A DNA stretch of 64,000 bases, taken from NCBI RefSeq assembly GCF_023913755.1, contig NZ_JAMXBJ010000042.1:1-64000 (forward strand), written 5' to 3'. A model generated the notes under the pieces. The model saw only the letters and a list, made by a program, of their open reading frames with translations, had not been told where the DNA came from and did no database searches. The DNA comes from Pseudarthrobacter cellobiosi (GTDB lineage Bacteria; Actinomycetota; Actinomycetes; Actinomycetales; Micrococcaceae). Below, one piece after another: positions 31,965 to 37,678 of this stretch. Each line of letters begins with the position of its first letter. Within the stretch, counting starts at the first letter, position 1. The position numbers and the translations under genes are program-made.

Positions 31965-33773
31965 ATGGCCAAGCAGACCTCATTTTTCAGATCCATCAGC
32001 CGTCTTTACCCTCACGTGAGGCCGATCATCCCCCGGCTGGTGATGGGACTCCTCTGCGCACTCCTGGCCAGCGTCGTGGCGCTGACCATCCCGCAGGTGC
32101 TGCGGGTCCTCGTCAATGAGTCCCTCAAACCCGGTGGCGCGTCGGACGCCGTCTGGACTGCCGCCGTCGTCATCCTGGTCCTGGGCATCGCCGAGGCGGG
32201 ACTCGTGGCGCTCCGCCGGCAGTTTGTGATCAACCCGGCCACCACCGTGGAAACCCAGATGAGGGTCTCGCTCTACGGGCACCTGCAGGACCTGACGGTG
32301 TCCTTCCACGACCGCTGGGGCTCCGGCCAGCTGCTGTCGCGTGCCATGACGGACCTGAACTTCCTGCGCCGCTGGATGGCGTTCGGTGCCATCATGCTGG
32401 TGGTCACCACACTCACGGTGGTCATCGGCATTGTGGTCATGTTCTCCATGAGCTGGCAGCTGGCCGTGATCTTCCTGGCCGCCGCGGTGCCCATCATGGC
32501 CTACGGGTTCCGGTTCCGGACGCGTTTCAGCAAGGTGGCGCGGCGTAGCCAGGACCAGGCAGGCGACCTCGCCACCACTGTGGAGGAATCCGTCCACGGC
32601 ATCCGCGTCCTAAAGGCCTTCGGCCGCAGCCGCGAGGCCCTGGAGAACTTCAACGAACAGGCCGAGGAACTCCGCCAGACCGAGATCATGAAGGCGAAGC
32701 ACCAGGCCACCTTCACCATGGTGGTCACGCTGCTGCCGGAACTCGCGCTCGGCGCCGGGCTGGTGGTGGGCGTGATGCTCTGCGCCAGCGGCCAGCTGAG
32801 CATCGGCGCCCTGGTGGCCTTCTTCGCCACCGCCGCCGTCATCGCAACGCCGGTGGAATTCTCCGGCATGCTGCTGGCCATGGCACTCACCGCCAAGTCC
32901 GCCGTCGACCGCCACTTCGAGGTCATGGATTCGGTCAACACCATCACCAGTCCCCCGGAGCCCCGCACCCCATCGCAGCTGAAGGGCGCCCTCAGCTTCA
33001 AGAACGCCACATTCGCGTTCGAGGACGCACCGGACAAGCCCATCCTCAAGAACATCAACCTGGACGTCCGGCCGGGCGAAACCATGGCACTGGTGGGCAT
33101 CACCGGCAGCGGCAAGAGCGCGCTGATCCAGCTGGTCCCGCGCCTGTACGACGTCACAGACGGCTCCATCACCATCGACGGCGTGGACCTGCGCGAGTTC
33201 GACGTCGACGGGCTGCGTCGGGTAGTGGGCGTCGCGTTCGAAGACACCACGCTGTTCTCCAGTTCGGTCCGCGACAACGTGCTTCTCGGGGCGCCGGACC
33301 GGACCGAGGAAGCCCTGGACGAAGCCCTGGATGTGGCGCAGGCGCACTTCGCGTACTCGCTGCCGGAAGGCGTGGATACGCTCATCGGCGAGGAGGGCCT
33401 GAGCCTTTCCGGCGGGCAGCGGCAGCGGATTGCCCTGGCCCGGGCCATCGCCGCGCGGCCCCGGGTCCTGGTGCTGGACGATCCGCTCTCGGCCCTGGAC
33501 GTGCACACCGAGGAGCTCGTGGAAACCCGGCTCCGCGCGGTCCTGAAGGACACCACCACGCTGATCGTCGCGCACCGTCCATCCACCGTGGCGCTGGCCG
33601 ACCGGGTGGCATTGCTCGAGGACGGCCGGATCGCCGCCGTCGGAACCCACACGGAACTGCTGGCGCACAACCCCCATTACCGCTATGTCATCGCCAGCCT
33701 GGACCAGGAACCACGGGACCTGGATTCGGAACTGTCGGAGCTTGAGGACGAGTCAGAGGACAGCATCCGATGA
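31965..33773 (+). CDS. ABC exporter half-transporter with degenerate ATP site
   Basis: 602 aa: a type IV exporter membrane domain (six helices, residues about 20-310) and an ATPase domain. Walker A is GITGSGKSA near residue 377, the signature LSLSGGQ is canonical, and Walker B ends [11 protein letters not shown], with Asp in place of the catalytic Glu. The Q-loop glutamine is replaced by Glu ([10 protein letters not shown]). These are the changes found in the non-catalytic site of heterodimeric exporters such as BmrC/BmrD or TM287/288. Its stop overlaps the partner gene (ATGA). The substrate is unknown; multidrug or lipid export are typical. Confidence 0.92.
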
Positions 33774-35668
33774 GTAGCGTAACCTTCGGCACCGCCAACG
33801 AGGACAACACCCACCTCAGCAAGACGGACAGTAAAACCGTACGACGGCGGTCGCTCGCCCTTTTGGCAACCCTGATCCGTCCCGTGCGGCTCAGGTTCTG
33901 GCTGACCATCGCCACCGTGGTCCTGTCCCAGGCCGCGCGCGTAGCCGGGCCTGCACTGATCGCGTTCGGCATCGACCACGCGCTCCCGTCGTTGCAGGCG
34001 GGCGACAACCTCCCGCTGGTGTTCACGGGCGTCGCCTACCTGCTCGCAGCAATCGCGACGGCGGGACTCACCGCCCTCTACGTCACCTCCACCGCGCGGC
34101 TCAGCCAGGCGATGCTGCTGGACTTGCGTGTCCGGGTCTTCCGGCACACGCAGCGCCTGAGCCTGGAATTCCACGAAAAGTACACGTCCGGCCGGATCAT
34201 CGCCCGGCAGACCTCGGACCTGGAGGCGCTGCGGGAACTCCTCGACTCCGGTGTCAGCTCTTTGGCCTCGGGCCTGCTGTTTATGGTCTTCACTGCTGTG
34301 ACGGTGTTTGCATTGGACTGGCGCAGCGGGCTGATCGTGCTGGCCGCCGGCTTCCCGATGTACTTCCTGTCGCGCTGGTACCAGAAGCACTCCCAGATCG
34401 TGTTCCGCGAATCCCGGGTGGTGTCCGCCCGGCTGATTGTGCACTTTGTGGAGACGATGACCGGGATCCGCGCCGTGAAGGCCTTCCGCAAGGAAACTGA
34501 AAACGCCGAGACGTACGGCCAGCTGTCCGAGGACTACCGGCTGGTCACTGTGCGCTCCATCAACCTCAACGGCGTTTTCCAGCCCGGCCTGGTGCTGATC
34601 GGCAACGTCTGCGTGGCCGTGGTGCTCCTGTTCGGCGGGTTCCGTGTCCTGGGCGGGGATCTTGCCGTGGGCGTGCTGCTGGCACTGATCCTTTCCACCA
34701 AACGCTTTTTCCAGCCGGTGGACCAGATGGCCATGTTCTACAACTCCTTCCAGAGTGCCCAGGCGGCCCTGGAGAAGGTGTCCGGCCTGCTGGAGGAGGT
34801 TCCGACGGTCCGCCCGCCCAAGAACGCTGTGGCGCTCCGCGATGCCCGGGGCACCATCGACTTCAAGGGTGTGGAGTTCCGCTACGGCGACGGCCCTGTG
34901 GTCATCCCCACCATGGACCTGCACATCCCCGCCGGCCAGACCGTGGCCCTCGTTGGGCAGACCGGCGCCGGGAAATCCACGCTGGCCAAGCTGATCGCCC
35001 GCTTCTACGACGTCTCCTCAGGCTCCCTGACCTTGGACGGAGTGGACCTGCGCAGCCTCACCACCACGGACCTGCGCCGGAACATCGTGATGGTCACCCA
35101 GGAGGCGTTCCTGTTCAGCGGCTCCGTGGCGGACAACATCGCGCTGGGCCGGCCGGAGGCTTCCCGTGATGAGATCGAGGATGCTGCCCGGGCCGTGGGC
35201 GCCCACGAGTTCATTACCGAACTCCCTGAAGGCTATGACACCGATGTCAACAAGCGCGGCGGCCGGGTTTCCTCCGGGCAACGGCAGCTGATCAGCTTCG
35301 CCCGGGCGTTCCTGGCCCGGCCGGCGGTGCTGATCCTGGACGAGGCCACCTCGTCGCTGGACATCCCCTCGGAGCGGCTCGTCCAGAGCGGGCTGGCGCG
35401 CCTTCTGCGGGCAACGTCCGACGCCGGCAGCCCGGCAGGTGCCCAGGGCTCGTCTGGTGCGAGGTCTGCGACCGAGGGCTCAGCTGCTGCGGGCGGCGGC
35501 CGGACGGCGCTGATCATCGCGCACCGCCTCTCCACCGTTGAAACTGCCGACCGCGTCCTGGTGGTCCACGACGGCCGCGTGGTCGAGGACGGCACCCCTG
35601 CAGAACTCATCGGCGGCGGCGGACGCTTCGCAGATCTCCATGGCGCCTGGAAGGACTCCCTGGTCTAG
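33770..35668 (+). CDS. ABC exporter half-transporter, catalytic partner
   Basis: 632 aa: membrane domain followed by an ATPase domain with Walker [11 protein letters not shown] (near residue 394), Q-loop MVTQEAFLF, Walker [12 protein letters not shown] with catalytic Glu, and H-loop [10 protein letters not shown]. The signature is VSSGQ instead of LSGGQ. Together with the first subunit this predicts one competent site (this Walker A/B with LSGGQ of the partner) and one degenerate site. About 30 residues rich in Ala, Gly and Ser (residues about 547-577) are inserted between the D-loop and the H-loop. No obvious terminator follows before tRNA-Pro. Confidence 0.92.
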
Positions 35669-35838: not shown

Positions 35839-35915
35839 CGGGATGTGGCGCAGCTTGGTAGCGCGCGTCGTTCGGGACGACGAGGTCGCAGGTTCAAATC
35901 CTGTCATCCCGACCA
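35839..35915 (+). tRNA. tRNA-Pro (anticodon CGG)
   Basis: Complete cloverleaf of 77 nt. The acceptor stem CGGGATG pairs with CATCCCG (35905-35911), the D-arm is GCGC...GCGC, the anticodon stem is CGTCG/CGACG with loop TTCGGGA giving anticodon CGG, and the T-arm contains GGTTCAAATCC. The 3' end ACCA is encoded. A terminator follows 6 bp later. Confidence 0.96.
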
Positions 35916-35952: not shown

Positions 35953-36065
35953 GTGTCTCCCGGCGGTCAAGTACCCGGCCAGAACCGGCCGGTGTCCGGG
36001 CAAAGAAGTAGCCCCGAGGCATGATTACCATGCCCCGGGGCCGCGCCTCCTGAGAGGATTCCTTA

Positions 36066-36154
36066 CATCGGGTCGGCCAGTTGCCAACGTTGGTGGTTTA
36101 GTTGCCGCTCTTGTCCTTGACGGGCTTGGACATGGGATCGGGCCAATTGCCAAC
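36066..36154 (-). repeat. two copies of the VGNWPDPM coding segment, second copy frame-broken
   Basis: Copy 1 (36131-36154) encodes VGNWPDPM inside the secreted peptide. Copy 2 (36066-36088), 9 bp past the peptide stop codon, is the same segment with three substitutions and one missing base, then TAA (36063-36065). If the missing base is restored it also reads VGNWPDPM followed by stop. All four differences fall at third codon positions. Both copies follow an ACC ACC (Thr-Thr) pair. Confidence 0.8.
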
Positions 36155-36271
36155 GGCTACGGATACGCCGGTGGTGTCGGCGATGGAACCTGCCGACAGG
36201 ACAGCCGGAGCCGCCGCAGAAAATGCCAAGGCCGCAGCGAGTACGCCAGCGGCCGCAATCTTCTTCAACAT
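36098..36271 (-). CDS. 57-aa secreted peptide, candidate signal-peptide pheromone precursor
   Basis: Reading frame MLKKIAAAGVLAAALAFSAA, then APAVLSAGSI, then ADTTGVSVAVGNWPDPMSKP, then VKDKSGN. It has a textbook Sec signal peptide (KK, hydrophobic Ala/Leu core, likely cleavage after SIA near residue 31) and leaves a mature peptide of about 26 residues with no cysteines. GAGGAA lies 6 nt before the ATG and a promoter (TTGACA-N17-TTTACA) is upstream. It is divergent from an XRE-TPR regulator, the arrangement of exported pheromones and RRNPP receptors (compare PapR, 48 aa, beside PlcR). No known pheromone sequence is matched. Function is inferred from architecture; a small secreted peptide of other purpose remains possible. 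Confidence 0.72.
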   Translation of the reverse strand: MLKKIAAAGVLAAALAFSAAAPAVLSAGSIADTTGVSVAVGNWPDPMSKPVKDKSGN

Positions 36272-36329
36272 ATAAGTTCCTCAATACGAGTCGGATTCGT
36301 TACAAAGTCAGCACTGTCCTTGTTGACAT

Positions 36330-36362
36330 ACATTGTAAAATGTTTTCCACAGGGACTGTCAA
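36330..36362 (-). promoter_or_regulatory. peptide-gene promoter with palindrome over the -10 box
   Basis: On the minus strand TTGACA (36357-36362) is followed after 17 nt by TTTACA (36334-36339). The palindrome ACATT-GTAA-AATGT (36330-36343) covers this -10 and is a candidate operator. ACTGTC occurs three times around it (36313, 36355 and 36378) and TACAAAG twice (36301 and 36371). Confidence 0.55.
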
Positions 36363-36403
36363 GCATTGAGTACAAAGACTGTCCAGAATTAGGAGGAAAT
36401 CCC

Positions 36404-37678
36404 GTGGGCAACGGATTCGGGGAGAAGCTCCGTGCGGAGCGACTCGAACGTGGGCTGACACAGGCTGAACTGGGCAAGGACCTGTATTCCCCCAGTTATA
36501 TCTCCCTCCTCGAAACCGGCCGCCGCGAGCCGACGGCCGAAGTGATCAAGGAGCTCGCCCGCAGGCTGGAGCTGGCGCCCAAGGCGCTGGAAGCCTGGAG
36601 CCAACCCATCACAGTCAGCGACGCTGAGTACGTCCTGGCCGGCCTCTACGCACGCCAGGCGTGGGACCTCAGGGACTACCCGCTGGCCGCCACCCACGCA
36701 GCCACCGCGGCCCAGATAGCCCTGGAGGGCAAGAACACCAGCGCGTGGTGGAACATGACCTACATGCAGGCCGAATGCCTGATCAAACAGGGCAACTGGC
36801 AGGAATGCCAAAAGATCATGCAGCACCTCCTGGAGCACCCGATGGCCACGGAATCTGCCGGCCTCGCCGTCCGTGCCCGTCAGATGCTCGCCGCTATCTG
36901 CCAGGGACAGGGCCAGCTAAGCAATGCCGTGGAACATGCGCTGGCGGCCGTACAACTCTGCGGCCAGCTGCCCAACGGATCCACCCTGATCATCGGCGCC
37001 TACCGCGCCCTGATCGGGGCGCTGGCGGAAAGCGGCCGCCTGGACGAGGCCTGGAAATACTGCCAGGCCATGAATGACCAGATGGACGAGCACTCCATGT
37101 CCCAGCTCGCCGGTGAGGTTGCCTGGGTGATCGGCAACGTGGCCTTTATGCGGCACGACTACCCCGAGGGCATCAAGTACCACGAGCGCGCCGCCAGGAT
37201 GCTGTCCCCCGCCAACGACATTGATCTGTGGGCCCGTTTCAACAAAGCCTCGGCCGCTGTCCGGCTGTCCTCCGGAATCGTAGAGCCGGAAACACTCTCC
37301 AGCATCGAGCGTGCCGAACTGGCACTGTCCATTGTGGGCGGCAACAAGAGCGACCAGCTGGAAGTTGCATTCATCCGCGCCCGCTGGCTGTATCTCACGG
37401 GCGACATCGTGGCTGCCATCAACAAGCTCCGCGAGATCCACTCGGAAGTAGGGGCTCTGGCCAAGCACACGGCAGGCGAAGTTTCACTCCTGCTTGGGAA
37501 GTCCCTGAAGGCCGCCGGCGAGTCCGACGAAGCCCTGGTCTACCTCGAAGAGGCGCAGAAGGCCTTCAGTGCCGCGGGAGCCTCGGACCGCGTCCAGCAG
37601 GCACTGGACGCGGTCCTTGAGATCAGGCTTGCCCAGCAGCGGGCCACCGCAGCAGCGAAGAACTCCAAGGCAAGCTAG
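36404..37678 (+). CDS. XRE-TPR transcriptional regulator, RRNPP-like receptor candidate
   Basis: 424 aa. An N-terminal XRE HTH (FGEKLRAERLERGLTQAELGKDLYSPSYISLLETGRREPT, residues 5-45) is followed by about 350 residues of helical TPR-like repeats, for example AWWNMTYMQAECLIKQGNWQECQKIM, DEAWKYCQAMNDQM and GDIVAAINKLREIHSE. This is the domain plan of PlcR, PrgX and Rgg, which bind imported peptides in the TPR groove. The GTG at 36404 is chosen because AGGAGG stands 7 nt upstream; the open frame extends far upstream through the tRNA and is not coding there. Divergent from the secreted-peptide gene with a 132-bp shared promoter region. Many actinobacterial XRE-TPR proteins have no known ligand, so the peptide link is inference. 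Confidence 0.85.
   Translation: MGNGFGEKLRAERLERGLTQAELGKDLYSPSYISLLETGRREPTAEVIKELARRLELAPKALEAWSQPITVSDAEYVLAGLYARQAWDLRDYPLAATHAATAAQIALEGKNTSAWWNMTYMQAECLIKQGNWQECQKIMQHLLEHPMATESAGLAVRARQMLAAICQGQGQLSNAVEHALAAVQLCGQLPNGSTLIIGAYRALIGALAESGRLDEAWKYCQAMNDQMDEHSMSQLAGEVAWVIGNVAFMRHDYPEGIKYHERAARMLSPANDIDLWARFNKASAAVRLSSGIVEPETLSSIERAELALSIVGGNKSDQLEVAFIRARWLYLTGDIVAAINKLREIHSEVGALAKHTAGEVSLLLGKSLKAAGESDEALVYLEEAQKAFSAAGASDRVQQALDAVLEIRLAQQRATAAAKNSKAS

Follow-up and report, generated by a model that had tools for sequence, protein, structure and literature searches.

A pair of divergently transcribed genes in the 64,000-nucleotide stretch of Pseudarthrobacter cellobiosi DNA analyzed here (the window) very probably forms a peptide quorum-sensing (pheromone) module resembling the RRNPP systems, as judged from sequence comparison. 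One gene encodes a small precursor with a Sec-type export signal, the other a regulator that joins an XRE-type helix-turn-helix (HTH) domain to tetratricopeptide repeats (TPR). This reading builds on the conserved pairing of the two genes, the export-type signal, a peptide repeat that is kept while its spacers vary freely, and peptide motif classes that track the receptor tree. The same design is found diversified across the Actinomycetes, with an HTH-less branch that lies mostly beside cyclic di-GMP (c-di-GMP) genes.

A first-pass annotation of the DNA letters had described a 57-aa frame on the minus strand and a 424-aa frame on the plus strand, divergent and with their starts 132 bp apart, and both frames are indeed present as described. 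It was also right about the make-up of the regulator, in which Pfam recognizes an HTH (HTH_3, E = 2.9e-11) and TPRs (TPR_12, E = 5.5e-10); against NCBIfam, the regulator gives sub-cut-off matches only. The precursor matches no Pfam family at E ≤ 1 and no NCBIfam family at E ≤ 0.1. Its first 27 residues carry, by eye and by our own rule, the predicted Sec signal (MLKK, a hydrophobic core, and an AxA-type site), and sequences resembling ribosome-binding sites precede both genes (GAGGAA before the precursor, AGGAGG before the regulator), again as first noted.

The strongest evidence for the pair comes from close relatives. The regulator was matched in all 150 genus genomes searched, our own included, with four partial matches (G053, G073, G093, and G134; G numbers denote genomes and L numbers loci of the comparison set), and the named relatives that carry it include Pseudarthrobacter, Paenarthrobacter, and Arthrobacter species. 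Regulator detections went from 199 to 171 on removal of identical proteins and of those with less than 400 nt upstream, and the genus-level set comprises 92 unique regulators that have 400 nt or more of upstream DNA (our own locus, 27 from the genome search, and 64 from the contig search). The rule and thresholds for calling a Sec-like open reading frame (ORF) were written after examples had been seen. By this rule, a divergent Sec-like ORF accompanies 92 of 92 genus-level regulators. When the upstream DNA was dinucleotide-shuffled ten times, the mean was 7.7 and the maximum 13, and the same-strand control gave a single Sec ORF. Loss of the small frame beside orthologous regulators, which the first-pass annotation had named as the observation that should count against the pair, was thus not seen at any genus-level locus. 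Its pairing of a secreted peptide with a TPR regulator is strongly supported by this comparison.

The precursors of the relatives also reveal what is kept within them. Together they hold 239 counted copies of a short unit, with one copy in 4 precursors, two in 47, three in 23, and four in 18, so that 88 of the 92 contain two or more in-frame copies. IGNWPDPM (135 times) and VGNWPDPM (88 times) make up 223 of the 239, and the remaining 16 deviate at the first, third, or last residue. VGNWPDPM had been proposed earlier as a possible active piece, and it is this octapeptide, with V or I in first position, that turns out to be repeated, which strongly supports the proposal. The count was restricted to the pattern G[NI]WPDP[MAVTF]; scanning more loosely added seven GNWADQL windows, one GGMLAPM, and one GSLGDPA, so that a few degenerate copies do exist. 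In 88 of the 92, the precursor ends exactly with its last copy, and the spacers between copies range freely from 3 to 26 residues. The codons of the counted units vary synonymously, with third positions free. Copies tend to be alike within a precursor: all are identical in 81 of the 88 multicopy precursors, and identical pairs account for 201 of 224 within precursors versus 12,699 of 28,217 between them. The signal region (codons 2–28, 86 distinct genus-level sequences) has a ratio of nonsynonymous to synonymous polymorphism (pN/pS) of 0.20. In its own genome, the window unit is the sole GNWPDP-coding site, with no further copies found by exact pattern.

Beyond the genus, 132 of 245 family genomes, counting our own, and 23 of 32 genera gave a regulator match at E ≤ 0.001, though some of these matches were weak. 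Searches of the order and the class extended the matches to additional families: those with profile A1 (E ≤ 1e-15) reached 32 of 297 and 24 of 296 genomes, and the more distant profile A2 (E ≤ 1e-25) 67 of 246, own-family members being counted in each. Divergent Sec ORFs were found at 15 of the 29 HTH regulators from the family, at 8 of the 9 TPR-only paralogues, and at 30 of the 41 more distant regulators from the class; ten dinucleotide shuffles gave means of 1.7, 0.7, and 1.7, and the same-strand control 0, 1, and 1, respectively. A WP or CC motif occurs somewhere after residue 20 in 50 of the 53 non-genus Sec ORFs; 500 residue shuffles gave 12.8 such ORFs on average and at most 23. No viral relatives were confirmed in viral contigs with profile A1, and no plasmid relatives of the window regulator appeared at E ≤ 1e-20.

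Family orthologues occupy the same chromosomal site, with purC adjoining in 16 of 17 loci tested, and it is at this site that the peptide code changes. These purC-side precursors carry five copies of IGNWPDPM (L112), five of FVGNWPDAV (L118), six of VGNWPDA (L119), three of GIWPD (L121), two of VWIWPD (L122), two of VGEWPH (L128), or eight of VGDWPH (L129). The distant class Sec ORFs mostly carry or end in WP, WPxxCC, or CC, for example VGGSWPT three times (L152), ...PNWPTMCC (L185), ...GGIWCC (L169), and ...SPGDFCC (L195). The receptor at L200 is accompanied by two small Sec ORFs: besides the one for a CC peptide upstream, there is another, with the end ...SDFCC, 76–250 nt downstream of the receptor. 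Two different pairs coexist in one genome (G059), one with GNWPDPM (L026) and the other with IGWWPN (L139).

The relation between peptide and receptor can be followed on a quickly built tree of 87 receptors, for which seven motif labels were set by hand (L130, L132, L146, L162, L163, L165, and L182). One TPR-only receptor, L124, was omitted from this tree because its N-terminus is unclear, and also from the neighbor-conservation test; it is the sole miss among the nine TPR-only paralogues counted above. Motif class (WP, WPxxCC, or CC) requires 3 changes among the 66 labeled rows, and HTH presence 1. With 'none' (18) and 'other' (3) added as classes, 14 changes are needed, where the minimum is 4, the shuffled mean is 41.2, and 0 of 200 shuffles are as low. 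Such clustering is also to be expected of any inherited trait. The 3 changes among labeled rows speak against the alternative that fares best, namely that the repeats are a secreted effector (an antimicrobial, a cell-surface ligand, or a binding repeat) whose gene the TPR regulator controls through another ligand. Divergent regulators often do control their neighbor gene, and multicopy secreted repeats would suit a released effector peptide too; we nevertheless hold this explanation to be unlikely. The two neighbors checked for conservation were purC and the gene of an ABC transporter, and immunity genes were not looked for systematically.

The HTH-less receptors argue further against an effector: TPR relatives that are by themselves no DNA-binding repressors still keep a divergent W-P peptide gene in 8 of 9 cases. 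These receptors are about 345 aa long and have divergent peptides of their own, such as IGWWPN, IGDWPN, and KVGNWPGS. Two TPR-only genes, that of L145 and one of two at L148, were lost by the start rule, and their peptides were found by eye. Nine HTH-less loci were compared (L131, L136, L139–L142, L145, L148, and L151). Seven of them (L136, L139–L142, L145, and L148, query locus L139 counted) are followed by a GGDEF-EAL gene, and five are preceded by one for a GAF-histidine kinase; at L142, the receptor and GGDEF-EAL genes share 4 bases when the latter is taken to begin at its first start codon. This gene neighborhood suggests that the branch may place c-di-GMP under peptide control. At L148 (1600–6230), two TPR-only receptors stand in tandem, each with a divergent peptide gene (one ending in IDDWPH, the other with KVGNWPGS twice). 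The window organism itself has a single receptor match and therefore no HTH-less paralogue at E ≤ 0.001.

Repeat precursors occur on plasmids too, in 2 of 11 Streptomyces and Kitasatospora plasmid loci scanned (L205 and L210); in the nine other Streptomyces plasmid loci scanned, no precursor was found. On a plasmid of Streptomyces sp. NBC_01006, the hypothetical protein WP_331742133.1 has three DIGWP units and is divergent from the HTH protein WP_331742130.1. On a plasmid of Kitasatospora sp. NBC_01266, WP_329572843.1 has six IGWPA units and lies downstream of the regulator. This six-IGWPA protein (L210:3990–4379) sits beside an XRE-TPR regulator, with a PqqD-type chaperone gene about 3 kb away. 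Three such plasmid loci lie near biosynthetic-type genes, only the Kitasatospora one with a repeat precursor. They lend something to the idea that the repeats are cores of a ribosomally synthesized and post-translationally modified peptide (RiPP), with the TPR protein as pathway regulator, as do the several identical cores per precursor and the Trp, Pro, and terminal Cys pairs that other clades conserve. We regard this as quite improbable, given a Sec signal in place of a cytosolic leader and window neighbors that are ABC transporter genes, a tRNA gene, and purC, although modifying enzymes near the relatives were not searched for.

Three loci (L130, L132, and L146) have no Sec ORF and instead a short leaderless frame with a W-P motif adjoining the receptor: ...GIGDWPHAA at L130, ...VGDWPD at L132, and at L146 a 16-aa peptide with a VNWPF end, MRNFVSFISGRVNWPF. 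That the small protein acts unprocessed, for instance as a membrane-bound partner of the regulator, is hardly believable: its gene does adjoin the regulator and small signal-bearing proteins can work in the membrane, but free spacers, one to eight copies, exact C-terminal copies, and these leaderless frames beside related receptors point to a released, repeated peptide.

In the pheromone module that we prefer, the small gene would yield a Sec-exported precursor with one to several short peptide copies ([VI]GNWPDPM in Arthrobacter relatives). Once the signal peptide is cut off, extracellular proteases would free the repeated peptide, which would build up with cell density and be taken up again, probably by an Opp/Dpp-type permease. 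Inside the cell, it would bind to the regulator's TPR domain, and the peptide-bound regulator would then act differently at the shared divergent promoter, on the precursor, on the regulator, and perhaps on other genes. An importer in the window organism is plausible because its genome encodes nine SBP_bac_5 proteins (PF00496, the oligopeptide-binding type).

The regulator can be compared with known receptors by profile and by fold. A profile of 22 receptors searched against PDB sequences finds PlcR at E = 1.5e-10 (positions 3–215 of 412), the best natural chain covering both HTH and TPR, with four designed repeat proteins scoring higher. Pfam lists 17 families for the regulator at E ≤ 1, and no family named after RNPP C-termini is among them. 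Its AlphaFold2 model (mean predicted local distance difference test score, pLDDT, 74.6; predicted template modeling score, pTM, 0.54; HTH part poor) forms a TPR superhelix, helical over about residues 70–420, and is compatible with a peptide-binding superhelix. Matching pheromone receptors include Rap with its peptide (4gyo; Z 23.0, root-mean-square deviation [rmsd] 5.5, 324 residues aligned), RapF (4i9c; Z 22.1, rmsd 5.8, 327 aligned), and NprR (5dbk; Z 21.8, rmsd 7.0, 332 aligned).

Between the two genes, a block running from TTGACA to TGTCAA is largely conserved in the genus-level set and encloses the dyad ACATTGTAAAATGT (36330–36343); an (A/T)TTGTAAA motif is retained in L116–L122, L128, and L129. 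The promoter claimed by the first-pass annotation can thus be upheld in part, with a genus-conserved TTGACA box on each strand. For the candidate operator, our own genome was searched with a 13-base core (at most 1 mismatch) and with TTGACANNCATTGTAAA (at most 2 mismatches), and the backwards control pattern gave one match in the former search and zero in the latter. A regulon deduced from operator sites was dropped, since both searches matched only the locus.

Several observations weigh against the pheromone reading. Its support comes from comparing sequences, trees, and models. About one fifth of the tree's receptors (18 of 87) have no peptide found nearby, looser rules included; they may be orphan or eavesdropping receptors. 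Six HTH-TPR paralogues (L125, L126, L127, L143, L149, and L150) form one tree group (support 90) with no nearby peptide gene found. The window organism is itself among the four exceptions to the C-terminal rule: its precursor has just one intact copy, which stands ten residues short of the C-terminus, so that release would need cleavage on both sides, or else the strain may signal poorly. A frame-shifted or stop-interrupted remnant of a second copy past the precursor stop is seen in the window and at L008 and L032; the first-pass annotation had not mentioned the one in the window. In the fold comparison, general TPR proteins outrank Rap, the top match being LGN (6hc2; Z 26.3, rmsd 6.6, 340 aligned), and the fold alone is therefore no demonstration of pheromone binding. 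The strict sigma-70 promoter scan gave no site, which is the part of the promoter claim that did not hold, and L112–L115 are without the TTGTAAA core. The candidate operator matches once in the 4.3-Mb genome, at the locus itself, which leaves autoregulation of the divergent pair as the only visible target and no wider regulon; its 9-base core CATTGTAAA, at most 1 mismatch allowed, is likewise not enriched in the window (1 match versus 2.3 expected).

The features of the locus are collected in the table. It is flanked in the window by a tRNA gene (35839–35912), by two ABC transporter genes upstream, and by purC (SAICAR synthetase) downstream. The two neighboring transporter genes (31965–35668) match Pfam ABC_membrane and ABC_tran. 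Conservation of the neighbors is high in the 80 contig-search loci, 79 of which retain the second transporter gene and 78 purC. That the transporter pair exports the peptide is possible as an idea, and an unsupported one. Hairpins like the one 3' of the precursor occurred at 4 sites in 601 bases, versus a shuffle mean of 0.7.

Table. Coordinates, strand, and basis of the features at the proposed pheromone locus (window positions).
Feature	Position	Strand	Basis
Proposed intracellular pheromone receptor/transcription factor, XRE-type HTH + TPR, 424 aa, GTG start	36404..37678	+	HTH_3, HTH_31, TPR_12
Proposed pheromone precursor, 57 aa, ATG start, Sec-type signal	36098..36271	-	Homologous ORF at 92/92 genus-level regulators
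Predicted Sec signal peptide, residues 1–27, cleavage site inferred	36191..36271	-	Sequence; pN/pS 0.20
Peptide unit VGNWPDPM, residues 40–47, proposed mature signal or core	36131..36154	-	Repeated in genus-level precursors
Degenerate second peptide copy, frame-shifted, 9 bp past precursor stop codon	36063..36088	-	Sequence
Divergent promoter region, 132 bp	36272..36403	.	Alignment of 92 genus-level intergenic regions
Conserved block, TTGACA to TGTCAA (divergent -35-like boxes), candidate operator	36323..36363	.	Genus-level conservation
Terminator-like hairpin 3' of precursor	36010..36042	-	15 pairs, 10 G-C

Taken beyond the single locus, we lean toward a class-wide pheromone superfamily of the Actinomycetota's own, with W-P or Cys-Cys peptides in one to eight copies, HTH-TPR readers, and a derived HTH-less branch, mostly adjoining GGDEF-EAL genes, that links the sensing of peptides to c-di-GMP. 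On this wider proposal, the precursors would be Sec-exported and sometimes leaderless, distinct channels would coexist in one genome (as in G059), and the code would have changed at the same orthologous purC-side locus, as in pherotypes. RRNPP(A) systems are described for Bacillota in the cited passages of PMC10075063, PMC9765709, and PMC12700828, and actinobacterial signaling mainly as small molecules in those of PMC10075063 and PMC4748050. The latter, a review of actinobacterial quorum sensing, presents in its cited parts gamma-butyrolactones plus lists of regulators and domains, with AAA, LuxR_C_Like, and REC for Arthrobacter and an unexplained 'TPR' for Streptomyces, Rhodococcus, Saccharopolyspora, and Thermobifida. 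In the cited part of a 2026 review (PMC13220807), RRNPP in Gram-positives is illustrated by Bacillus and other Firmicutes; Streptomyces is brought in for gamma-butyrolactones. In the open-access literature (bioRxiv and most subscription journals lying outside the scope), we found no description of such actinobacterial systems and no paper with the strings NWPDPM or GNWPDP; the shorter NWPDP turned up once, in an unrelated sensor-engineering paper. The pairs point to what is apparently an undescribed family of bacterial peptide communication systems, which would work like RRNPP and is unusually broad, and the case for a separate superfamily is credible. If true, synthetic peptides would become testable switches of development, c-di-GMP, or secondary metabolism in soil actinobacteria and Streptomycetaceae, and the joint change of signal and receptor at one locus would be open to study.

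How does the module compare with known systems? The first-pass annotation had likened it to PlcR/PapR, which holds insofar as a proposed HTH-TPR receptor stands beside a predicted secreted peptide; the gene order differs, and the likeness of the receptor to PlcR is one of domains and profile match. Bacillales systems have the pheromone gene directly downstream of that of the receptor (cited passage of PMC9765709), whereas here it is divergent and upstream, likewise at all 92 genus-level loci. Precursors of the yeast alpha-factor type are also secreted and contain tandem peptide units with spacers, but they belong to eukaryotic G-protein-coupled receptor signaling and serve as an analogy only. 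A divergent gene order is known from Rgg-SHP. With Sec-less short peptides of the Rgg-SHP and leaderless kinds beside their receptors, the likeness is confined to three single loci that look putatively leaderless; leaderless communication peptides are reported in Firmicutes (PMC10518010). The Rap-Phr systems, whose propeptides can be tandemly duplicated (cited part of PMC11343458), resemble the HTH-less paralogues of other genomes in pairing an HTH-less TPR receptor with a secreted peptide gene, whereas the window regulator carries an HTH. This likeness is one of gene content and arrangement. The HTH-less paralogues mostly adjoin GGDEF-EAL genes and sometimes a histidine kinase gene.

The closest comparison is with the RRNPP(A) systems at large. 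An N-terminal HTH is typical of the PlcR, Rgg, NprR, and PrgX types, and the window regulator has one (HTH_3, at the E-value given above), next to a small propeptide gene with a predicted export signal. A cytosolic receptor with 5–9 TPRs defines the group in the cited text of PMC9765709, and TPR_12, other TPR models, and the modeled superhelix correspond to it here. The strict mode of RRNPP_detector looks, according to the passage cited from PMC10075063, for a receptor of 250–500 aa matching peptide-binding TPR hidden Markov models beside a secreted protein of 10–100 aa; the window pair (424 and 57 aa) fits in size and adjacency, to which this comparison is limited. In NprR systems, 17 of 17 atypically large propeptides are multicopy (same source as the TPR definition, PMC9765709, as cited). 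Like the Bacillota RRNPP(A) systems (PlcR-PapR, NprR-NprX, Rgg-SHP, and ComR-XIP), the present family has a mature signal, here a proposed one, at or near the C-terminus; its receptors are likened to them by profile match and are not placed in any named Bacillota subfamily. What sets it apart is another phylum, the divergent order, a G-x-W-P or CC code, and up to 8 copies per precursor.

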